Part shown: positions 2,203 to 18,623 of the stretch, piece after piece
Numbering within the stretch: the first letter of the stretch is position 1
Layout of the letters: every line of letters begins with the position of its first letter
From: a virus
Direction: 5' to 3' (one strand)
DNA: 21,323 nt
Virus record (IMG/VR): IMGVR_UViG_3300023184_000591
Location: 1 to 21,323 of that record
The notes under the pieces: generated by a model
Told to the model about the DNA's origin: nothing
Databases searched by the model: none
Seen by the model: only the letters and a program-made list of their open reading frames with translations
Position numbers and translations under genes: made by a program

Positions 2203-3612
2203 ATGAGATTTCACGAATTTATCACCGAAGCAGCAGCAGGCAAGACACTGGGTGGTTTCGCTGTGACCCCCGTACATGTTGGGCAGTCGCCTGTTAAAGA
2301 AAACGCAGAAGACTTACATGTTGGCGATCCGGTTGTAATTACTGGCAATGTGGAATTTAATGGCAGCACTGGCGAAATTGCAGAGTTTGGCCGTGACAAC
2401 CGTTTTGTTGTAGTCGACTTGTACAACCATGGTCGCCAAAGTTTCCATTCCAGTGATGTCAGTTTTAACGAGTATGCCGGCAGCGATGACGAAGAAGCGC
2501 AGGCATATGACCGTGATCCTGCTGCGCGGGACTGGAACCTAGAAGAAGCACTCAAGTTGGATGCTCCACAGAAGTCATGGTCCCGGCAAGACATGCAGGA
2601 TTATGCAACTAGGATTAAAACCGGAACAAAGACCAAACAAGATAGATTCAAGCCCATTATACACGGCAGTAACATCAAAGCTATCACCAAAGACGACGGC
2701 GGTGAAGAGTGGGACCTAGATGATTTAGCAAGACAAATCACTACCCCACCTAGGGCTATACTTGGCACCAATGCTAAAATGGCCAAGAGCAAAAAAGAAG
2801 GCGCTATCACATATGACTTGACACTACCAGCACTGAGTGGTATTGTTGTGGATGAAGAGACTGGTGAGTTTATAGAAATTACCACTTGCCCTGGTGCCGG
2901 CGAATGCCAGCTGATCTGTTATGCTAGAAAAGGCGGCTATGTCATGTTCCCTGCTAGCTCAATGAGCGCAGCACAGGCATTGAACTTCCTAGTCAACCAC
3001 CCCCAAGATTACATGCAGATGTTTGACAGCGAAGTCAAGCGTACCAAGGCTCTAGCAGACAAGAACGGTATTAAACTATTAGTACGCATACACGATGCTG
3101 GTGACTTTTTTAGTAAAGAGTACTATAATCTCAGCATGGATGTTGCTCGCAACAACCCCACAGTCAAGTTTTATTTCTATACTAAAATAGGGCAAGTGGC
3201 CACAGATACTTCTGTGCCGCCTAATGTAATATCACAGTTTAGTTCTGGTGCAAAAAGTCGCGAAGTTAAAACAGTCGATCTAGTTAGAAATGCCGGCAAG
3301 CATGTTAAAGATGCTATTACATTAGACAAAGACATGTTCCGCGGGTTGTTTGTTACTGACCCTAAGGGCAAGTATGTCAAAGATGAGCAGGGACGCACAC
3401 AGGTCAAGAGTCCAGCTGCGTGGGCTCAATTCAAACAAACGCTGGCCTCTAAGTATAAAATTGATACGGACTCTATTATCACATACGACCAAATGAATAA
3501 GATTCCCGAAGGACCGCAGCCTAAATGGAATGTGGTGGTATTCCCGGCCGGGCACGGCGACATAGGTGCTACACGTTTAGATGTGCAAAACCAATTCTTG
3601 ATGTTCCACTAA
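2203..3612 (+). CDS. gp88-like protein with N-terminal SH3/KOW-like domain
   Basis: This protein has 469 residues. It begins MRFHEFITEA, matching the T4 capsid-targeting leader and a predicted ITE-A prohead-protease site. Residues about 40-90 (DLHVGDPVVITG to QSFHSSDVSF) look like a small beta-barrel of SH3/KOW type. From about residue 150 it resembles the mycobacteriophage 'gene product 88' family: a cysteine cluster C229-x5-C235-x3-C239 followed by YARKG, then RIHDAGDFFS (H297, D298, D301), then FYFYTKIG. The cysteines could bind metal or an iron-sulfur cluster; the family's biochemical role is not known to me. The C-terminus ends VVVFPAGHGD followed by a short tail. The SD is weak (TTAGGG about 11 bases upstream). 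It lies between two other genes with similar N-termini, suggesting a set of co-packaged proteins. Confidence 0.7.
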   Translation: MRFHEFITEAAAGKTLGGFAVTPVHVGQSPVKENAEDLHVGDPVVITGNVEFNGSTGEIAEFGRDNRFVVVDLYNHGRQSFHSSDVSFNEYAGSDDEEAQAYDRDPAARDWNLEEALKLDAPQKSWSRQDMQDYATRIKTGTKTKQDRFKPIIHGSNIKAITKDDGGEEWDLDDLARQITTPPRAILGTNAKMAKSKKEGAITYDLTLPALSGIVVDEETGEFIEITTCPGAGECQLICYARKGGYVMFPASSMSAAQALNFLVNHPQDYMQMFDSEVKRTKALADKNGIKLLVRIHDAGDFFSKEYYNLSMDVARNNPTVKFYFYTKIGQVATDTSVPPNVISQFSSGAKSREVKTVDLVRNAGKHVKDAITLDKDMFRGLFVTDPKGKYVKDEQGRTQVKSPAAWAQFKQTLASKYKIDTDSIITYDQMNKIPEGPQPKWNVVVFPAGHGDIGATRLDVQNQFLMFH

Positions 3613-9191: not shown

Positions 9192-9553
9192 TCAAAGGTC
9201 TCCAGGGCGAGCGGCATGTAACGGTCACTGGTGGTAATACCAGTGTACCTTATGTTAATATTGGCCTAGACAAGCCCATGGCAGGTGTGATTAGGGTCAG
9301 TGGGACCGACATGCAGGTGTTTGATGGCACAAGTTGGATGACCATGAACACCAGCTACGCCACTGTGGGACTGAGTAATGCAGCCCAAGATGCCATAGAC
9401 TGGGTGCAGTACAAGATGCAGGAAGAACGTGATATGGAAGTGATTAAAGCCCAATATCCGCACTTAACCGAAGCCATTGAAGAAGTAGAACACGCTAAGA
9501 AGGCTTTACAGACCCTGATAGCACTAACAAAAGAGTACGATGTTGCAGGATAA
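9188..9553 (+). CDS. Conserved phage protein with fibre-like N-terminus and coiled-coil C-terminus, unknown
   Basis: This protein has 121 residues from the ATG at 9188, coupled to the clamp stop by ATGA. An in-frame start at 9158 would overlap the clamp more and has no SD. The N-terminal half is beta-rich with a pattern seen in phage virion or fibre-attached segments: GNTSVPYVNIGLDKPMAGVI, then RVSGTDMQVFDGTSWMTM. The C-terminal half is helical and charged (DAIDWVQYKMQEERDMEV, then EEVEHAKKALQTLIAL) and could form a coiled coil. The function is unknown; a virion-associated role is a guess from the first half. It overlaps the DpdA gene by 14 bases. Confidence 0.75.
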   Translation: MIKGLQGERHVTVTGGNTSVPYVNIGLDKPMAGVIRVSGTDMQVFDGTSWMTMNTSYATVGLSNAAQDAIDWVQYKMQEERDMEVIKAQYPHLTEAIEEVEHAKKALQTLIALTKEYDVAG

Positions 9554-11237
9554 TTTAACAGCTAAACAACGCGATTATGCCGTATATCTCCCGGCTATCT
9601 CGGGATTTTATGCCACGTTCGTAGGTAGGCAGCGTAAAGAGCAGTATGTAGACCCCGCTAGGTTTCCTGCAGGCCTAACAGACATGGAACAGATGAATTG
9701 GCTGGCTAGCCAACAGGCATTATTTCCTTATCGTTGGAGTCTATATAGTGCAGGGCATGCCAACTTGGATCTCACCAAACCCGATGCCAGTGAGGACATG
9801 GTACGTGCTCGTGAATCAGGCACATTCATGCTGGGAGACTCGGGTGGATTCCAAATTGCCAAAGGCTTATGGCAGGGCGAGTGGCGTGATCCCAACAGCG
9901 CAGAAGTAAAACAAAAAATGGCTGCACTGGTGGCAGCGGGCGTGACCACCGTTCCTGTCGTAGACAAGGCAGGCAATCCAGTCATTAACAAAAAAACTGG
10001 ACAGCCCAAAACAAAAATCATAGATCCTGTACGTGAATACCAAGACCTACTGGATGCTGCACAAGTCAAGCGGCAGGCGGTGTTGGCATGGCTAGACAAC
10101 ATCAGCGACTATGCAATGACCCTGGATATTCCAACTTGGGTTATTAAAGATCGTAAAGCCAGCGATGCTTGCGGTATCACTACCTTACAAGAAGCAGTAG
10201 ATGCTACCAAGTTCAATAACGAATACTTTATGCGACATCGCCGCGGCGTCAGTGAAGGTGGTACTCGTGTGCTGAACGTGTTGCAAGGTGCCAATCATGC
10301 TGACGCCGAAGCATGGTATCAGACCATGAAGGTCTATTGCGATCCTGCGGTATATCCAGGCAAGCACTTTGATGGTTGGGCCATGGGTGGACAAAACATG
10401 TGCGATGTACATCTAGTGTTACTACGACTAGTATCACTACGTTATGATAATCTATTACAAGAAGGCGTACACGATTGGATGCACTTCTTGGGTACAAGTA
10501 AACTGGAGTGGGCATTATTGTTAACTGATATACAGCGAGCCGTAAGGAAATATGTCAACCCCAAGTTCACTATCAGCTTTGACTGTGCGAGTCCGTTCCT
10601 AGCAACTGCTAATGGACAGGTCTATAACGAAATATCATTGCCTCATGAGGATAAGTGGAGTTATCGCATGACTCCTATTGCCGACGATAAGAAGTATTCA
10701 TCTGACACTAGACAGTTTAGTACGGCGGCCATCGCTGATGGCCTGATTGATCACTTTGACGAGAGCCCTATTAGTCGCCTATGCAAAATGCGAGACATTT
10801 GCATCTATGCGCCCGGAGACGTAAATAAGAATGGTAAGGAAGGTCGTACCAGCTGGGATAGTTTTAGCTATGCACTACTAATGGGACACAATGTCTGGAT
10901 GCATATTGAAGCTGTACAACGTGCTAATCGTGAATACGATGCAGGTACATGGCCCAGCATGATGCGTAACGATCGTGGTGAGCATGAATTCTTCCGTGAC
11001 ATTGTTGATGCTGTATTTGCTGCACCCGATAGAGATACTGCCAATGCCATCATTGAGCACTACAGTCGCTATTGGATGAACATTATTGGCACACGCGGTA
11101 ACAAAGGATTAAAGACCATCAACGCAGGTACCATGGCAGATGAATTGATTGAGTTTGAGGGCGCATTGCAAGCCAAGCCCGAAAAGAAAGAAAAGAAGAA
11201 ACCGGTCATTAACGAAAGTATTTTTGATTTAAGCTAA
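9540..11237 (+). CDS. dpdA: DpdA: TGT-like enzyme inserting 7-deazaguanine into DNA
   Basis: This 565-residue protein is related to tRNA-guanine transglycosylase (TGT). TGT-family features visible: DSGGFQ (D100-Q105, base-binding motif), DYAMTLDIPTWV, a GGQ element in FDGWAMGGQNMCD, and FDCASPF, in which D348 aligns with the nucleophilic aspartate of the FDC.PTR motif. The classic tRNA-TGT zinc motif CxCxxC is absent. Larger size, a phage setting and the nearby folE, queD and queE genes all favour DpdA, which swaps guanine in DNA for a 7-deazaguanine base, protecting against restriction. An insertion near residues 140-163 has the pattern DKAGNPVINKKTGQPK. The C-terminal tail is lysine-rich (KPEKKEKKKP). 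The exact DpdA subfamily and the final base are not determined. Confidence 0.85.
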   Translation: MLQDNLTAKQRDYAVYLPAISGFYATFVGRQRKEQYVDPARFPAGLTDMEQMNWLASQQALFPYRWSLYSAGHANLDLTKPDASEDMVRARESGTFMLGDSGGFQIAKGLWQGEWRDPNSAEVKQKMAALVAAGVTTVPVVDKAGNPVINKKTGQPKTKIIDPVREYQDLLDAAQVKRQAVLAWLDNISDYAMTLDIPTWVIKDRKASDACGITTLQEAVDATKFNNEYFMRHRRGVSEGGTRVLNVLQGANHADAEAWYQTMKVYCDPAVYPGKHFDGWAMGGQNMCDVHLVLLRLVSLRYDNLLQEGVHDWMHFLGTSKLEWALLLTDIQRAVRKYVNPKFTISFDCASPFLATANGQVYNEISLPHEDKWSYRMTPIADDKKYSSDTRQFSTAAIADGLIDHFDESPISRLCKMRDICIYAPGDVNKNGKEGRTSWDSFSYALLMGHNVWMHIEAVQRANREYDAGTWPSMMRNDRGEHEFFRDIVDAVFAAPDRDTANAIIEHYSRYWMNIIGTRGNKGLKTINAGTMADELIEFEGALQAKPEKKEKKKPVINESIFDLS

Positions 11238-11461: not shown

Positions 11462-11968
11462 ATGATTAGACAAGGACATGAAGATGCCAGTTTCTTCTAC
11501 GGCATTGAAATTGAGCGCACACCTGCATACGGTAAGAAAACCCTGTTTGTAGTCGGGGTACAAACTGAAGATGATATTGCCCAACACATTAACGGATGTG
11601 AGCACATTTACTTTGGTGCTAACATGAGTTTTCCCAATCCTGATGTTAACGATGCCAACACGTGGGACCAGTGGCAAGATATGATTACGCCGTTCTTGAG
11701 AGCAGGTTACTTATGCTCATTGGATATTGATGTTCAATCTGTAGAAGGCCTACTAGAGTGTGGCCTTACCGAATACCACAACTTTATCCCAATGATATCA
11801 GTCAAGATACCCTACTTGCAACAGCTGGGATATAATGCCACTGTCAAAATTGATGACAAAGATTTCGATGCCACCAATCCCGGTGTATGGTGTCACAGCC
11901 TACACTCCTTAACCAACCCTGCTAACTTTACCAGCTGGCGGGAATACACGAAAGATGAACTAGTATGA
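11462..11968 (+). CDS. Conserved phage protein of unknown function in the modification cluster
   Basis: This protein has 168 residues. The start lies after GAG-rich bases (GAGATTCGAG) that give only a poor SD. It is soluble and aromatic-rich: DASFFYGIEIERTPAYGK, then CEHIYFGANMSFPNPD, then GYLCSLDIDVQSVEGLLECG, then YHNFIPMISVKIPYLQQLGY, and VKIDDKDFDATNPGVWCH. The alternation of strands (LFVVGV, HIYFGA, CSLDID, MISVKI) with helices suggests a partial TIM-barrel-like alpha/beta fold. I recall similar proteins in marine T4-like phages without a known function. Its position after DpdA and before the T-fold-like gene allows a role in base modification, but nothing in the sequence proves it. It is coupled to the next gene by ATGA. 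Confidence 0.75.
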   Translation: MIRQGHEDASFFYGIEIERTPAYGKKTLFVVGVQTEDDIAQHINGCEHIYFGANMSFPNPDVNDANTWDQWQDMITPFLRAGYLCSLDIDVQSVEGLLECGLTEYHNFIPMISVKIPYLQQLGYNATVKIDDKDFDATNPGVWCHSLHSLTNPANFTSWREYTKDELV

Positions 11969-12297
11969 TTAGACGTACCGTAAGAAGCATTGTCAAATGG
12001 GCTATGGACGACCCACAACAACTTAATTACAATAATAAATTAACCAATCTCACTATTGGTAATATAGAAGCCAGTTCCAGTCGAGATGAAGAAGACCGTG
12101 TCATACGCCGGCCGGGCATGATGTTTACTGTTTACCCTGCAGAAGGTGGTACAGTGATACAATGTAAACCCAATCACCATAACGAAATGACTAAAAATTC
12201 ACCCAGTCACCCTAGGCTGTACGTCATACACGACGATGCTGCATTTAACGACGAACTTGCCAACATTATTCATATGGAAAGGATTAGACTGCTATGA
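11965..12297 (+). CDS. Conserved small phage protein, unknown
   Basis: This protein has 110 residues and starts within the upstream stop (ATGA, 11965-11968). The N-terminus is basic (MIRRTVRSIVKWAMDDPQQL). The centre has short strands (RRPGMMFTVYPAEGGTVIQC), then a polar loop KPNHHNEMTKNSPSHP, strand LYVIHD and a final helix NDELANIIHMERIRLL. It has no membrane segment and no motif that I can assign. It ends in a second ATGA overlap with the T-fold-like gene, so three genes (11462-12734) are translationally coupled and probably act together. Confidence 0.75.
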   Translation: MIRRTVRSIVKWAMDDPQQLNYNNKLTNLTIGNIEASSSRDEEDRVIRRPGMMFTVYPAEGGTVIQCKPNHHNEMTKNSPSHPRLYVIHDDAAFNDELANIIHMERIRLL

Positions 12298-12734
12298 ACC
12301 AAGAACAAAGAGAAACTGTCGAGCGAGTCAAAGCTCGCGCTAAACGCAAAATTTGGGTCACGTTCCAGAAAGAAGGTATGCATTGCTATCCAGCAGCAGC
12401 AACGGATCCCACACTGGCCACAGGAGATGAATATGATGTCTCGTTTCTTGCTAGTCCTCATCGCCACATCTTTCATTTCCGGGTGTGGATCAATGTGTCG
12501 CATAATGACAGGGACATCGAATTCATCCAGTTCAAACGATGGATGGAGAATTTGTATAGCGATAACATACTAAAACTAGATTACAAAAGTTGCGAAATGA
12601 TGTCAGACGATTTGTATGACAAAATCGCTGATCGGTATCCCGGACACACGGTCTGGATTGAAGTCTCCGAGGATGGTGAAAACGGAGCCTTTATTAAATA
12701 TGAAACTCACCTACCAAAACTTATTAGTGTTTAA
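12294..12734 (+). CDS. Possible T-fold (QueD-like) protein lacking the usual catalytic residues
   Basis: This protein has 146 residues and is coupled to its upstream neighbour by ATGA. By eye, residues 20-133 line up with 6-carboxytetrahydropterin synthase (QueD): GMHCYP (H30) with the first zinc His, SPHRHIFHFRVWI (H56, H58) with the LHGH strand, RDIEFIQFKRW with the 'DF.dLK' helix, SCEMMSDDLYDKI (E101) with 'TSE...wi', and VWIEVSEDGENGAF (E126) with the last strand. The zinc triad is kept, but the catalytic Cys before HxH and the DH pair are not (LDY at 95-97). If the fold is right, it may bind a pterin or deazapurine without normal QueD chemistry. A different fold with chance histidines is possible. 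The whole family may be only 'conserved phage protein'. Confidence 0.7.
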   Translation: MNQEQRETVERVKARAKRKIWVTFQKEGMHCYPAAATDPTLATGDEYDVSFLASPHRHIFHFRVWINVSHNDRDIEFIQFKRWMENLYSDNILKLDYKSCEMMSDDLYDKIADRYPGHTVWIEVSEDGENGAFIKYETHLPKLISV

Positions 12735-12743
12735 GGAAATAAT

Positions 12744-12986
12744 ATGGCACAACCTGCATGGTTAAAAAAATATCTGCGCTTCAAACCTGAAGTCAATAAC
12801 ATCTTTGACGGCTTAGAAGAATATCGCGATTTCTGCGCTCGTTACGGGCATGTGTTCAACGAAGCTGACTTGGGTAATGAATACAGCCCATTCTCAGAAA
12901 TGATGCGTGTCAAGCGCGGCAAGTATCCACGTGATAACTGGGGATGGTTGATTAAAAACACTCGCATGGAACCTAGAAATGCGTAA
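12744..12986 (+). CDS. Small conserved phage protein, unknown
   Basis: This protein has 80 residues with an AAGGA SD before the ATG. The sequence is charged and aromatic: QPAWLKKYLRFKPEVNNI, then GLEEYRDFCARYGHVFNE, then MMRVKRGKYPRDNWGWLI. It appears helical, with a tryptophan-rich C-terminus. I know of similar uncharacterised proteins in T4-like marine phages. The last eight bases overlap the start of the glycosyltransferase gene, which suggests co-expression but not necessarily shared function. Confidence 0.75.
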   Translation: MAQPAWLKKYLRFKPEVNNIFDGLEEYRDFCARYGHVFNEADLGNEYSPFSEMMRVKRGKYPRDNWGWLIKNTRMEPRNA

Positions 12987-14157
12987 ACTCTATTACATGG
13001 GGCTAGAGCCCTACAAAGCAAGATATACTCTACAACTGCAAGAGTGGAATCGTGCTGTGTTTGAACAACGCGGCATTGACTATGTTATAGTACCCGGCGA
13101 AACACTCAGTAACGATCAAGCAATTGTTACAGGACAGGTATTAGATGCACACGGACGCACATACTTTGGTATGAGTCAGTTAATGAATCTGATTAAGATG
13201 ATGAAAGCAGGAGAATTAAACAATGAAGATGTGGTCTATTTTGAGGACATGTTTCAGCCCGGCATCGAGAGCCTACCTTATATCCTCAAGCAAATCGATA
13301 GTAGCCACCGTCCTCGTATTTTTGTTCGCTGTCTTGCCCAGTCTATTGATCCTGACGATTTTGTTCATGTGTGGAATATGCAAGAGTTTATGGGTCATTA
13401 CGAAAAGATGGTTGATTCGTTTGTGGACGGAGTACTTGCAACCAATGAAGAAATGGTAATGCACATGAAGATTGCAGGTTGGCGGGCTCCCGTCTACAAT
13501 ATTTCAGGACTAGCATTTGGCAAAGATGAAGTACGTGCCCGTGTACCCGGTGAACTAAAAGAGTTTGGAGATCGTGCTATGCGTGTGGGCTTTGCTGCAC
13601 GTTGGGATCAAGAGAAGCAGCCAGACTTCTACATGGATCTCATCGAATCATGGCATACTCAATATCCAAATCATCCAGTAGAGTTTTGTATCTTTAGTGG
13701 TGCAAAATTAAAGAGCAATAACGACAGCTACATGGCACGTACACGCGATCTACAAGCACGTGGTATGCTTACTATCTATGAGGACTTGGAAAAGAATGAC
13801 TACTACAGTCTCCTTAATGACACTCGTGTGCTTTTTAATTGCGCTTTACAAGATTGGGTCTCAAACACTGTATCAGAAGCGGACACTCTTGGTTGTAATG
13901 TACTTTACCCTGCTTATCGCAGTTTCCCTGAGACCTTTGCTAACGACCATACTCGAATGTATATACCCTGGAGCCTCGACGATGCTATTGCCAAGCTAGA
14001 AGATTTGCTAGGATATCATCATGTAAGTCAGGGATTGATTAGTGATTGGAATGACGGTACTATTGATCGCATATGTGATATACTAGAAGGCAAAGGTAAC
14101 AAGTGGTTGCGCATGAGCACTGATTATCGGAAACACACACATGAGACCAAATACTAA
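12979..14157 (+). CDS. Glycosyltransferase-like protein (GT-B fold, GT4-like)
   Basis: This protein has 392 residues and starts eight bases inside the previous gene. The C-terminal half shows the nucleotide-sugar-binding arrangement of GT-B enzymes: RVGFAARWDQEKQPDFYMDL (the 'vGR...KG' region), VEFCIFSGAK, then LTIYEDLEKNDYYSLLNDTR, and SNTVSEADTLGCNVLYPAYR with the 'E..A.G..V' motif where the donor phosphate usually binds. The N-terminal half would bind the acceptor. Acceptor candidates are modified DNA bases, virion proteins or host surface sugars. The following GalE-type gene could supply or convert UDP-sugars. It overlaps that gene by 17 bases. Confidence 0.75.
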   Translation: MRKLYYMGLEPYKARYTLQLQEWNRAVFEQRGIDYVIVPGETLSNDQAIVTGQVLDAHGRTYFGMSQLMNLIKMMKAGELNNEDVVYFEDMFQPGIESLPYILKQIDSSHRPRIFVRCLAQSIDPDDFVHVWNMQEFMGHYEKMVDSFVDGVLATNEEMVMHMKIAGWRAPVYNISGLAFGKDEVRARVPGELKEFGDRAMRVGFAARWDQEKQPDFYMDLIESWHTQYPNHPVEFCIFSGAKLKSNNDSYMARTRDLQARGMLTIYEDLEKNDYYSLLNDTRVLFNCALQDWVSNTVSEADTLGCNVLYPAYRSFPETFANDHTRMYIPWSLDDAIAKLEDLLGYHHVSQGLISDWNDGTIDRICDILEGKGNKWLRMSTDYRKHTHETKY

Positions 14158-15148
14158 ACGAGTAGTTGTTACTGGTGCTATGGGATACATTGGCAGTCAC
14201 ACTGCCAAGGTGTTCAAGCAAGCTGGCTATCATGTCATTGGTGTAGATCGCACATGGACCATACCTGAAGCAGCACCATTCTTGGATCAAATGCTAATCG
14301 CAGACTACACAGATGCTGCGGCAACTGCTGCCATAGTCAATGATGCTGATGCCATTATACATTGTGCTGGTACTAGCCTAGTAGGTCCAAGTATTGCTGA
14401 TCCTGGTGAATACTACAACAATAATGTTGCCAAGACCAATATCTTAATGGACCAGCTACGGGGGTGGACTGGTACCATTGTGTTTAGTAGTAGTGCTGCT
14501 ACCTATGGCAACTATTGCAGCAATCCTATCAGTGAGAGTGCTACTCAAGATCCAATGAATCCATATGGTTGGAGCAAGCTCATGTGTGAACAAGTAATTG
14601 CAGACCATTGTCAGGCACATGGTTATCGCGGTGTTGCATTGCGTTACTTTAATGCGTGTGGTGCAGATGCAGATGGAGAGTTAGGGCATACCATGCATGC
14701 CACTCATATCATTCCACGTATATTAAGTGCCTATCAAAACAATCGCCTGTTTACCCTAAACGGCAATGACTATGATACACCAGACGGTACCTGCATACGC
14801 GACTACCTGCATGTAACTGATATTGCCCATGCACATTTAGAAGCTGTATGCCTAGCCGACGGATTCAATGCTGGAGACTTTACTGCTTATAATTTGGGTA
14901 CTACAACAGGACACAGTAACTTAGAAGTGCTTAAAATGTGCAGTCAGGTGGTTGGCGAGGAAATTGCCTATAAGGTAGTTGCCCGACGTGAAGGTGATCC
15001 AGATCGACTGGTTGCAGATAGCACTAAATTTAAATGTATGACTAAATGGCGCCCGCGGAATAGCAATATTGAAAATATAATATCAACTGCATGGCAATGG
15101 CAGAAACGGTATGATCTATTACCCACCTGTCTTGACACCACTGCCTAA
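14141..15148 (+). CDS. galE: UDP-glucose 4-epimerase-like protein (extended SDR)
   Basis: This protein has 335 residues, the usual length for GalE. It interconverts UDP-sugars at C4 using bound NAD. Visible features: Rossmann loop VTGAMGYIGSH (G12-G18), acidic VDR after the second strand, SSSAATYG (catalytic serine/threonine region), NPYGWSK with Y142 and K146 (catalytic pair), RYFNACGAD, and CIRDYLHVTDIAHAHLEAV with the usual substrate-binding residues. The closest class is GalE, but C4 epimerases acting on other UDP-sugars and some dehydratases share these motifs. It overlaps the glycosyltransferase by 17 bases, so the two are likely partners. A sigma70-like promoter for the next gene lies in its last codons. 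Confidence 0.88.
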   Translation: MRPNTKRVVVTGAMGYIGSHTAKVFKQAGYHVIGVDRTWTIPEAAPFLDQMLIADYTDAAATAAIVNDADAIIHCAGTSLVGPSIADPGEYYNNNVAKTNILMDQLRGWTGTIVFSSSAATYGNYCSNPISESATQDPMNPYGWSKLMCEQVIADHCQAHGYRGVALRYFNACGADADGELGHTMHATHIIPRILSAYQNNRLFTLNGNDYDTPDGTCIRDYLHVTDIAHAHLEAVCLADGFNAGDFTAYNLGTTTGHSNLEVLKMCSQVVGEEIAYKVVARREGDPDRLVADSTKFKCMTKWRPRNSNIENIISTAWQWQKRYDLLPTCLDTTA

Positions 15149-15201: not shown

Positions 15202-15996
15202 TTGACTAGAACCTTTACACCTGACCCACTACTGCATGGTAGTGCGGCAGAGATAGAATATGTACCCTTAGATGGGCACCAGCTATACGCTAAAAAAGAT
15301 GGTCCGGGCATGTACTTGAGTACTGCTATTCGTGCCAAAATGCAAAACGATAAAAAACGTTTCTGGGCAGGAGACAACGTCAGCGACTATGTTACAGAAG
15401 CTGATATCGAGCCACTGATTACAGAAGCCGCACAGGCATTTGAGCAGGTGTTAGATGCATTGCTAATTGATCGTGAGAATGATCCAAACAGCCGGGGTAC
15501 AGCACGTAGACTTGCTAAAATGTATTATAAAGAAATAATGGCAGGTAGATATGAACCAGCACCAGACGCAACGTGTTTTCCAAACGATTCAGCAGACCGC
15601 TACGAAGGCATGCTGGTGGTTAGAAGTGAACTACGCTCAATGTGTAGCCACCATCACCAGCCTGTATCTGGTGTCGCTTATATTGGGATTATCGCCGCTA
15701 ATAAGCTCATTGGTTTGTCTAAGTACACTCGCATTGCTCAATGGTGCGCTCGTCGTGGTACTTTACAGGAAGAACTGTGCAACGACATAGCCAAGGAAAT
15801 TATGCGGGCCACAGACAGCGAAAACGTGGCAGTTTACATACAGGCCGTGCATGGTTGTTGCGAAAATCGTGGCATTATGGCGCATAGTAGCTTAACACAG
15901 ACAACTGTGCTTAAAGGCAGTTTCCGCGATGATCCACATACCAAGAAAGAGTTTATGGATAATGTTAAATTGCAGCAGGAATTTGCACCGCGATGA
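15202..15996 (+). CDS. folE: GTP cyclohydrolase I (FolE)
   Basis: This 264-residue enzyme makes 7,8-dihydroneopterin triphosphate from GTP, the first step toward both folate and 7-deazaguanines. The TTG start follows GGAG (15191-15194) with eight-base spacing; no ATG stands nearby. Family motifs: DPNSRGTARRLAKMYY, then SMCSHHH (zinc ligands C148 and H151), IGLSKYTRIAQWCARRGTLQ and HGCCENRGIMAH (H217, C219). All the expected zinc and GTP-binding residues are present. The N-terminus has about 60 residues more than the E. coli enzyme (222), containing GSAAEIEYVPLDGHQLYAKK, of unknown role. It has its own promoter. With QueD and QueE nearby, its product most likely feeds base modification rather than folate. 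Confidence 0.94.
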   Translation: MTRTFTPDPLLHGSAAEIEYVPLDGHQLYAKKDGPGMYLSTAIRAKMQNDKKRFWAGDNVSDYVTEADIEPLITEAAQAFEQVLDALLIDRENDPNSRGTARRLAKMYYKEIMAGRYEPAPDATCFPNDSADRYEGMLVVRSELRSMCSHHHQPVSGVAYIGIIAANKLIGLSKYTRIAQWCARRGTLQEELCNDIAKEIMRATDSENVAVYIQAVHGCCENRGIMAHSSLTQTTVLKGSFRDDPHTKKEFMDNVKLQQEFAPR

Positions 15997-16115: not shown

Positions 16116-16565
16116 ATGTTTCTTAAATTACTAGAGCGTTTAGGCCGCAAACGAATCATCATGGATCGTACCTGCAACCAACCTTATTTAGAACGCTACT
16201 ATCTATTGTTTAGTGATCGCGGTAGCTTTCCTTTTAACGTGTTCCTACACAAGTTCCTCAAGAGTGATCCAGATGACCATCATGATCATCCCTGGGCTTA
16301 CTCTACCTTAATACTCCGTGGTGGGTATTGGGAGTGGACTCCTACCTTTGATGCGCAAGGTCGTAAGACTGGCGAAGTGTCTAAGTGGTATGGTGCGGGC
16401 AGTTTCCGTCGAGCACCAGCTAATAGCTATCACAGGATCGAACTAGATCCCAATATTACTTGCTGGACCTTGTTTATGCCAGGTCGCAAAGTTCGTGACT
16501 GGGGGTTCTTTAGTCGTGGTACTTGGATACAATGGGAACAATACTTAACCAATAGGTCTGTATGA
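16116..16565 (+). CDS. Cupin-fold protein
   Basis: This protein has 149 residues with a good SD (AAGGAG). Cupin motif 1 is seen at DDHHDHPWAYSTLILRGG, with clustered histidines for a metal (about residues 54-57) and a glycine-rich turn. Motif 2 is at FRRAPANSYHRIEL, with a further histidine. The C-terminal strand is TLFMPGRKVRDWGFF, ending in TWIQWEQYL. Cupins of this size include metal-dependent isomerases, oxygenases and sugar-nucleotide enzymes; the substrate is unknown. Its place between folE and the QueD-like gene allows a role in completing the modified base, but a role with the nearby sugar enzymes is equally possible. The stop overlaps the next start. Confidence 0.75.
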   Translation: MFLKLLERLGRKRIIMDRTCNQPYLERYYLLFSDRGSFPFNVFLHKFLKSDPDDHHDHPWAYSTLILRGGYWEWTPTFDAQGRKTGEVSKWYGAGSFRRAPANSYHRIELDPNITCWTLFMPGRKVRDWGFFSRGTWIQWEQYLTNRSV

Positions 16566-16991: not shown

Positions 16992-17495
16992 ATGTCATTA
17001 CAACCAATCGTATACAAATATACAAGTACAAAAGAGTACATAGACGCATTTCCTTGCGCTTATAGACAATGGAGGGCCGATAGTCATTGCAATATGAATC
17101 ACGGTTACTCGTTTAGTATGAAGTTCTATTTTGGAACCAACGACCTAGACGTTCGCAACTGGGTTGCCGACTACGGCGGATTGAAAGAACTTAAAAAGAT
17201 ATTAGAAGACCAATTTGATCACACAACTCTGGTGGCACATGATGATCCAGAACTTGAGTTCTACAAAGAAATGGAACGCCGCAAGTTAGCCAAACTGACT
17301 ATCCTGCCGGCTATGGGATGCGAGTCGCTGAGTGACATGCTGTACAAGTATGTCAATGGTGTTTACATTCCTGACTACTGGGGCGAAGGTGAAGCCAAGC
17401 GACTGTGGTGCTATCGTGTAGAAGTGCGCGAAACACAGGCTAACATGGCTTTCCGTGAAGGGCATCGTGAATGGAACGAGGACTTGTTTGCATGA
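16992..17495 (+). CDS. queD: 6-carboxy-5,6,7,8-tetrahydropterin synthase-like (QueD)
   Basis: This protein has 167 residues; the usual QueD has about 120. It would convert FolE's dihydroneopterin triphosphate to 6-carboxytetrahydropterin. Motifs: CAYRQWRADSHCNMNHGYSF (catalytic-type C33, H37), NWVADYGGLKELK (D60, the 'DFG' helix), DQFDHTTLVA (catalytic pair D76, H77), GCESLSDMLYKYV (E111) and VEVRETQANMAF (E147). Compared with E. coli QueD, two of the three zinc histidines are replaced (Y24 for the first, Y39 in HGY for HGH); the same AYRQW...HGY pattern is known in a bacterial and phage QueD-like branch, so it is not a local defect. It is coupled by ATGA to the MazG-like gene and then to QueE. 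Confidence 0.85.
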   Translation: MSLQPIVYKYTSTKEYIDAFPCAYRQWRADSHCNMNHGYSFSMKFYFGTNDLDVRNWVADYGGLKELKKILEDQFDHTTLVAHDDPELEFYKEMERRKLAKLTILPAMGCESLSDMLYKYVNGVYIPDYWGEGEAKRLWCYRVEVRETQANMAFREGHREWNEDLFA

Positions 17496-17764
17496 ACGCA
17501 AAAGAGAAAGAAGTGATGGACATTCTTCAAGAAGAATGTGCAGAAGTGATCCAAGCGGTTAGCAAATGCAGCCGTTTTGGTATCGACAATTACAAGCCCG
17601 GCAAACCCTTGACCAACAGACAACACCTTGAAGAAGAACTTGGTGATCTGTTGGCCATGGTCGATATCATGCTGGAACAAGGCATTGTCAATATAGCCAA
17701 TTTGGACGAAGCCAAGGCAAATAAAAAACACAAACTTAAGAAATGGTCTACCATATATGAGTAA
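17492..17764 (+). CDS. MazG-like nucleotide pyrophosphohydrolase
   Basis: This protein has 90 residues. The ATG at 17492 overlaps the QueD stop; an in-frame start at 17471 has no SD and would lie within queD. The all-alpha NTP-pyrophosphatase signature is present: EECAEVIQAVSK (E-E-x-x-E) followed by LEEELGDLLAMVDIM (E-x-x-D), which binds magnesium. It would cut NTP or dNTP to the monophosphate and pyrophosphate. It may remove unwanted nucleotides, or lower alarmone levels as has been proposed for cyanophage MazG; the target is not evident. Sitting between queD and queE, it might instead serve deazaguanine or pterin metabolism. It overlaps queE by eight bases. Confidence 0.85.
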   Translation: MNAKEKEVMDILQEECAEVIQAVSKCSRFGIDNYKPGKPLTNRQHLEEELGDLLAMVDIMLEQGIVNIANLDEAKANKKHKLKKWSTIYE

Positions 17765-18623
17765 ACTCAAAGTAGCAGAACTATTCTACAGCATTCAAGG
17801 CGAAGGCAGATACATGGGTGTGCCCAGTGTGTTCTTGCGTGTATTTGGATGCAATTTTCGCTGCGCAGGCTTTGGCATGCCACGCGGAGAATTAAGTATG
17901 GAGGCTGCTGGTATTGCAGCTACACATTCATTGGTTACCCCTTTTCAAAAGTATGGAGAGCTTCCGTTAGTAAGCACAGGATGTGATAGCTATGCCAGTT
18001 GGGATCCAGCATTTAAAGATCTAAGTCCTGTACGCAAAAATACTGAACTTGCAGAGGACATTGCTGCCATGCTGCCATTCAAGGAGTGGCGTGATGAACA
18101 TCTTGTGATCACCGGTGGTGAACCATTGCTGGGTTGGCAACGTGCATATCCCAGCTTGTTAGATGATCCCAAAATGTCTGGCTTGCAAGAGATCACATTT
18201 GAGACTAATGGTACCCAACCACTCTCTCCCGAGTTTAGAAAGTATTTGCTGAACTGGACGCTAGGTAATCAAAAACGTGGTCGTGAAGCATTGACATTCA
18301 GTGTGAGTGCCAAACTGCCATGCAGTGGTGAGCGATGGGAGGAAGCCATACGCCCCGAGATTGTGTGCCAATATGAAGATGTTGGGCACACATACTTGAA
18401 ACTGGTAATTGCTAGCCGAGAGGACTTTGCCGATGCGCAACGTGCGGTGGCGGAATACCGTGCAGCTGGATTTAAAGGTCATGTGTATTTGATGCCCATT
18501 GGTGGTGTTGAAAGCGTGTATGCACTAAACAACAAGAACGTGGCTGTCTTGGCCATGAATGAGGGTTGGCGCTACAGTGATCGACTGCAAGTACCGCTGT
18601 TCAAGAATGAGTGGGGCACCTAA
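17757..18623 (+). CDS. queE: 7-carboxy-7-deazaguanine synthase (QueE), radical SAM
   Basis: This protein has 288 residues. It rearranges 6-carboxytetrahydropterin to 7-carboxy-7-deazaguanine using S-adenosylmethionine and a 4Fe-4S cluster. The N-terminus LFYSIQGEGRYMGVPSVFLR is the QueE signature. The cluster cysteines are unusual: C32-x3-C36 is followed not by x2-C but by a 39-residue insertion and then C76 in TGCDSYASWD, which matches the WCDT.YAWD position of ordinary QueE. ITGGEPLLGWQ is the SAM-binding GGE motif, TFETNGTQPL follows, and SVSAKLPCSG is near the C-terminal substrate region. The same split arrangement seems typical of the marine phage QueE branch. It follows MazG with an eight-base overlap and completes the FolE-QueD-QueE route. 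Confidence 0.92.
   Translation: MSKLKVAELFYSIQGEGRYMGVPSVFLRVFGCNFRCAGFGMPRGELSMEAAGIAATHSLVTPFQKYGELPLVSTGCDSYASWDPAFKDLSPVRKNTELAEDIAAMLPFKEWRDEHLVITGGEPLLGWQRAYPSLLDDPKMSGLQEITFETNGTQPLSPEFRKYLLNWTLGNQKRGREALTFSVSAKLPCSGERWEEAIRPEIVCQYEDVGHTYLKLVIASREDFADAQRAVAEYRAAGFKGHVYLMPIGGVESVYALNNKNVAVLAMNEGWRYSDRLQVPLFKNEWGT

Follow-up and report, generated by a model that had tools for sequence, protein, structure and literature searches.

TF2, as we call the product of a phage gene in a DNA modification cluster, is found almost only in phages that make 7-carboxy-7-deazaguanine (CDG) but lack QueC, and this mutual exclusion of TF2 and QueC is the strongest result of our analysis. We regard it as fairly probable that TF2 is a T-fold metalloenzyme that converts CDG for the transglycosylase DpdA in the place of QueC, most likely by decarboxylation to 7-deazaguanine. 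The gene lies in the window, i.e., the complete analyzed stretch of 21,323 nucleotides from a viral contig (IMG/VR record IMGVR_UViG_3300023184_000591), and the relevant features are compiled in Table 1. The original prediction that drew attention to this gene had missed three points, namely, that QueC is excluded, that Cys100 is invariant, and that a conserved glycosyltransferase gene lies at 12979. The modification cluster also includes a cupin-like protein (window 16116-16565; PHROG 4786, annotated as cysteine dioxygenase, E 3e-38) that is found in 12 related loci as well, and the window further encodes a GP88-domain protein (PF17338, E 3.5e-30; 2203-3612).

Table 1. Positions of TF2, its putative functional residues, and the genes of the surrounding cluster in the window.
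Feature	Position	Strand	Remarks
DpdA, predicted TGT-superfamily DNA guanine transglycosylase	9540..11237	+	DSGGFQ (D100) and FDCASP (D348) kept
ORF 11462, conserved partner of TF2	11462..11968	+	168 aa; linked in 180/202 viral-contig loci
ORF 11965	11965..12297	+	ATGA overlap with both ORF 11462 and TF2; not conserved
TF2 (name used here; PHROG 17812)	12294..12734	+	146 aa; putative QueD-like zinc triad, without catalytic Cys or Asp-His
His30, first His of the putative zinc triad	12381..12383	+	invariant in alignments
His56-Arg57-His58, HxH of the putative zinc triad	12459..12467	+	H56 12459-12461, H58 12465-12467
RDIEF, residues 73-77	12510..12524	+	counterpart of the QueD WIIDF stretch
Ser99-Cys100-Glu101	12588..12596	+	invariant; E101 (12594-12596) at the position of the base-anchoring Glu
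Glu126-Asp127, second conserved acidic site	12669..12674	+	E126 12669-12671
Small ORF behind TF2	12744..12986	+	kept in 80/80, 42/80, and 39/42 loci of relatives
GT4-like (GT-B) glycosyltransferase	12979..14157	+	conserved neighbor of TF2 and DpdA
GalE-like NAD-dependent epimerase/dehydratase	14141..15148	+	
FolE, GTP cyclohydrolase I	15202..15996	+	
QueD-like PTPS (PHROG 2389)	16992..17495	+	catalytic Cys33 and Asp76-His77 kept; HGY in place of HGH
MazG	17471-17764		
QueE, CDG synthase	17757..18623	+	

The original prediction had described TF2 as a QueD-like protein with a zinc triad but without the catalytic residues, and this observation is real. H30, H56, H58, RDIEF, E101, and E126 lie where they had been placed. 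When 32 homologues with identities as low as 25% were aligned, H30, L52, H56, H58, F60, V68, R73, E76, S99, C100, E101, and E126 proved to be invariant, which argues against a chance resemblance, and the conservation pattern of a larger set of 72 sequences agrees with this. QueD's catalytic residues have been lost, as the position of the catalytic cysteine, four residues before the HxH motif, is taken by the invariant Leu52, and no Asp-His pair precedes the SCE motif in the homologue alignment, where the respective stretch is short and variable. C31 is not conserved, and Cys100 is a possible candidate for a catalytic residue.

TF2 belongs to PHROG 17812 (E 5e-33), a large phage family with no annotated function. 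Pfam and NCBIfam searches gave no significant match, with neither PF01242 nor the NCBIfam QueD models being hit, and the TF2 profile found nothing meaningful among PDB sequences. A tblastn search identified 28 phage records, the weakest ones at chance level only. A pattern scan of IMG/VR found at least 594 relatives (594 of 598 among the stretches listed), and two further scans with distant members added 80 and 42 loci. For the phiST protein, a pattern scan found no homologues in viral contigs, and none of the plasmids searched carried TF2. In the bacterial and archaeal genome set, TF2 occurred in 28 contigs, many of which are clearly phage-like.

The AlphaFold2 model of TF2, built on the 72-sequence alignment, reached a pLDDT of 92.4 and a pTM of 0.81 and shows the order beta-beta-alpha-alpha-beta-beta of a T-fold. 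Its best Foldseek match in the PDB was E. coli QueD (4ntk; E 5e-5, TM 0.61/0.72), and all 16 matches at E < 0.001 were QueD or PTPS proteins. VIA returned PTPS (Z 11.8), DHNA (Z 10.5), and QueD (Z 10.2), which are all T-folds, and did not separate PTPS and QueD from other T-folds such as DHNA. Fold and structural matches thus place TF2 in the T-fold superfamily, just as had been proposed. In an hhalign comparison with phage QueD, SCE aligned with GCE and SEDGENGA with RETQANMA (probability 64, E 7e-5). With a 95-residue fragment of E. coli QueD, only the N-terminal half was aligned, which is weak evidence alone (probability 7, E 0.005); in this alignment, H30 matched the first zinc histidine, HRH matched HGH, and RDIEFIQFK matched WIIDFAELK. 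Although each of the two hhalign results is weak alone, they are mutually consistent and in line with the fold of TF2.

Among known families, TF2 is close to QueD/PTPS (COG0720, PF01242; PTPS-I, II, and III), with which it shares the T-fold, the HxH motif with an upstream histidine, and the base-anchoring glutamate, represented by E101 of SCE that aligns with GCE/TSE, and like which it is found alongside FolE and QueE. The three histidines match the zinc ligands in sequence position, and H30, H56, and H58 would therefore be expected to bind zinc. However, TF2 differs from QueD/PTPS by the lack of a Pfam PTPS match, by Leu52 instead of the catalytic cysteine (Glu in PTPS-III), by the absence of the Asp-His pair, by the invariant Cys100, and by its occurrence beside a genuine QueD. 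QueF and QueF-L are also T-fold proteins that act on 7-deazaguanines, and QueF-L is among the Foldseek and VIA matches of TF2, but the putative zinc triad and the SCE motif of TF2 fit QueD better.

To examine the pathway context, we compared 12 diverse named TF2 phages with 12 QueE-bearing phages without TF2, in none of which the TF2 profile gave a match (0/12). QueE was present in 11 and QueD in 10 of the 12 TF2 phages. Full-length QueC (PF06508) was found in none of the 12 TF2 phages versus 11 of the 12 QueE-positive controls (Fisher p about 1e-5, a value that ignores kinship among the sampled phages). QueC was also not detected above the cut-off in 19 long TF2-bearing contigs of 40-374 kb. 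A partial QueC match in the TF2-bearing Vibrio phage D479 (positions 133-201) was rejected as QueC, as it resembles second partial matches in KVP40 and 6E35.1a, both of which have a full QueC besides. The match in the TF2 phage X1 was weaker than that of D479 and below the cut-off, and the only match in the control phage Mendera was partial and of the same kind as that of D479. FolE, QueE, and DpdA, as expected for a branch leading from CDG to 7-deazaguanine, are all encoded in the window, and the absence of QueC holds for the TF2 family (12 phages and 19 long contigs). The window itself is a fragment of 21 kb, outside which QueC could still be encoded. The absence of QueC from the phages is an indirect argument, since hosts could supply QueC. 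A wide occurrence of the trio of ORF 11462, ORF 11965, and TF2 in phages without dpdA and queE had been named as evidence against the original prediction, and occurrence in such phages was for the most part not observed.

As QueE is present and QueC is absent, CDG is the end point of the pathway in TF2 phages, unless it is processed further by TF2 or the host, and the QueC exclusion together with the presence of QueE suggests that TF2 most likely acts on CDG, the product of QueE. We therefore propose that FolE, QueD, and QueE would make CDG, which TF2 would then take over at the point where other phages use QueC. A zinc ion held by His30, His56, and His58 would grip the 7-carboxylate of CDG, and the 2-amino-4-oxo edge of the pyrimidine would be held in place by Glu101 (and Glu126), as it is in QueD/PTPS. 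On departure of CO2, C7 would receive its proton from the invariant Cys100 or from Glu126/Asp127. CDG would thereby be converted to 7-deazaguanine, and DpdA would swap guanine in DNA for this finished base. We favor a CDG decarboxylase because the requirement for QueE, the exclusion of QueC, the kept glutamate and putative zinc triad, and the lost QueD chemistry all fit; the decarboxylation as such we infer from what is missing. The earlier suggestion that TF2 could be a new deazapurine-handling enzyme is supported by its ties to DpdA and QueE.

A similar step has been considered before. In 2023, Cui et al. (NAR) reportedly found phage DNA to contain dDG and dCDG and are said to have predicted a CDG decarboxylase, "DpdL". 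DpdL would fill the step that we propose for TF2, the conversion of CDG to 7-deazaguanine where a phage has FolE, QueD, QueE, and DpdA but no QueC; the likeness of DpdL to TF2 concerns the pathway step. Should DpdL be the TF2 family, the function would already have been proposed, and the window would contribute one more member. In tubercidin synthesis, the UbiD-family protein TubF has been assigned to the decarboxylation of a CDG-derived intermediate, yielding a 7-unsubstituted deazapurine (PMC6112128), and decarboxylation at the CDG level is thus known biology. However, TubF is unrelated to TF2, as it has 422 residues, is probably dependent on prenylated FMN, and acts after ribosylation (PMC6112128). 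The QueC/Gat-QueC preQ0 branch of phage DNA modification operates at the same step as TF2, after QueE and before DpdA (PMC6884629), but QueC is an ATP-dependent amide/nitrile synthase, and TF2 phages are devoid of it.

The genomic linkage of TF2 was quantified with three viral-contig sets of TF2 loci (80 + 80 + 42 = 202). DpdA was present in 72/80, 72/80, and 35/42 of these loci (179/202 overall), ORF 11462 in 76/80, 68/80, and 36/42, and the glycosyltransferase in 76/80, 69/80, and 41/42, and these three genes and TF2 are on one strand throughout. The identity of the DpdA of the window rests on aligned TGT motifs, in which both catalytic Asp positions are kept (D100 and D348, which are invariant and match those of E. 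coli Tgt in the alignment), and a sequence search of the PDB gave no match. The phages phiST, MA9V-3, D479, Ahp1, and Roos do not belong to the main DpdA type and have near TF2 a smaller gene (about 260-300 codons) that, with its D-N/S-G/A, HxLG, and DS/DT motifs, looks DpdA-like by eye. In the TF2 phages RHph and Bakedbeans, DpdA was not found.

The close neighborhood of DpdA and TF2, the lack of QueC in TF2 phages, and the retention of the putative zinc triad and base-anchoring glutamate in a protein that no longer has the catalytic residues of QueD would also suit a binding or delivery subunit that holds CDG via zinc and Glu101 for DpdA, in which case CDG itself would be the DNA base. We consider this unlikely, as the invariance of Ser99-Cys100 and Glu126 seems to go beyond the needs of binding and as there are Streptomyces loci in which TF2 and QueD occur and DpdA was not found.

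TF2 had also been suggested to be coupled to the two genes right behind DpdA. The overlaps are real, with ATGA at both junctions, but only ORF 11462 proved to be a partner: all 13 phage records that carry ORF 11462 also carry TF2, in addition to its linkage in the viral contigs. In the PA5oct/Paride group, ORF 11462 is kept in all TF2 phages though unlinked, at a distance of about 26 kb in the Paride group. Its model has an alpha/beta fold (pLDDT 90.5), for which Foldseek found nothing below E 0.06 in the PDB and VIA gave STAS/RsbS (Z 7.2) and QueE (Z 5.8), both within the range of common arrangements. ORF 11965 was rejected as a conserved partner, being present in 4 of 93 loci and in no phage record.

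The linkage to the GT4-like glycosyltransferase is the most unexpected part of the picture. This enzyme, which may decorate the modified base, is encoded beside TF2 and DpdA at window 12979-14157, L271:6853-7998, L003:4996-6024, and L004:4846-5907. TF2 could act on CDG or a similar 7-deazaguanine by a different reaction, making a handle for the glycosyltransferase or the attachment itself, the base then being a glycosylated 7-deazaguanine. This would fit the distance of not more than 2.5 kb between the two genes in most loci, their adjacency with shuffled gene order in the very distant genomes of Phosso, ACP17, Paride, BUCT-ZZ01, X1, and Magnetospirillum, the conserved GT4-like residues R208, K213, and E300, and the GalE-like gene downstream. 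However, 7 of the 12 named TF2 phages do not have the glycosyltransferase, a partial relative is present in PhiXhv-16, which has QueC but no TF2, and an unsubstituted 7-deazaguanine offers no hydroxyl acceptor, and we therefore give this alternative only a small chance. We are similarly doubtful about its broader form, in which TF2, DpdA, ORF 11462, and the glycosyltransferase would be one module for glycosylated 7-deazaguanine in DNA, with the TF2 step on CDG preparing sugar attachment, that is common to aquatic phages, jumbo Pseudomonas phages, and Magnetospirillum chromosomes (there without ORF 11462).

In these Magnetospirillum chromosomes, glycosyltransferase, TF2, DpdA, an ORF, and QueD form an overlapping operon. 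It is found in Magnetospirillum and relatives (L271:6853-10911; also L269, L270, L273, L276, and L278) on contigs of up to 1.4 Mb, where a HEPN_LA2681 gene (L271:1102-2664), an integrase-like ORF, and response regulator genes lie nearby. This operon may belong to a prophage, an island, or a defense locus.

Streptomyces NEAU-Y11 contains a TF2-QueD-FolE-deaminase cluster in which no DpdA was detected, and its genome has no convincing QueE. Streptomyces TF2-QueD pairs, which possibly belong to a pterin or deazapurine natural-product cluster, were found at L285:7971-10111 (with FolE and a cytidine-deaminase-type gene) and L287:1513-2336 (with an amidohydrolase), both without DpdA. The occurrence of TF2 without detected DpdA but beside QueD and FolE fits an action on a free small molecule and not on DNA, and the lack of a convincing QueE indicates that this distant branch may act on a pterin. 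If this applied to the whole family, TF2 would be a pterin-side enzyme that acts on CPH4 or dihydroneopterin triphosphate in an additional, QueD-like step that precedes QueE; the fold and triad in common with QueD would also speak for this. We judge this to be quite improbable, as 10 of the 12 named TF2 phages already have QueD and as the exclusion of QueC, a downstream enzyme, would be left unexplained.

Faecalibacterium phage Roos (L011:5977-7875) has genes for TF2, for a small DpdA-like protein, and for a transporter of the Vut_1 (COG1738) type, which together possibly serve a salvage route. QueD and QueE gave no match in Roos, nor did FolE beside TF2, and without detected synthesis genes the TF2 substrate would need to be taken up from outside or supplied by host enzymes.

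The QueD-like protein of the window does, as the original prediction had stated, keep the catalytic residues and have two zinc histidines changed, with Y in their place. HGY-type QueD is present in Mendera and PhiXhv-16, in which the profile finds no TF2, and Paride (copy a) and Bakedbeans have both TF2 and HGH-type QueD; the changes in TF2 and QueD are therefore not coupled. T-fold active sites sit at subunit interfaces, and the residues of the two proteins are complementary in this window, but this distribution and the presence of TF2 without QueD in Roos led us to reject the earlier idea of complementary subunits, making a hetero-oligomer with the zinc triad from TF2 and the Cys and Asp-His from QueD very improbable. 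Long QueD-like ORFs of 305-417 residues in L104, L254, and L258 (Ahp1, KVP40, and Pori-4) contain two PTPS-like matches or a long insertion and are possibly tandem T-folds.

7-Deazaguanines shield phage DNA from restriction. The TF2 family marks a QueC-less branch of their synthesis that is widespread among aquatic phages, and it allows the chemistry of the base to be predicted from the genes present. The Magnetospirillum operon indicates that the module exists outside phage records, and the glycosyltransferase linkage leads us to expect a new base in the DNA of phages that can be cultured (Paride/PA5oct and ACP17). If the proposed function is true, a T-fold zinc decarboxylase would represent new chemistry on an old scaffold.
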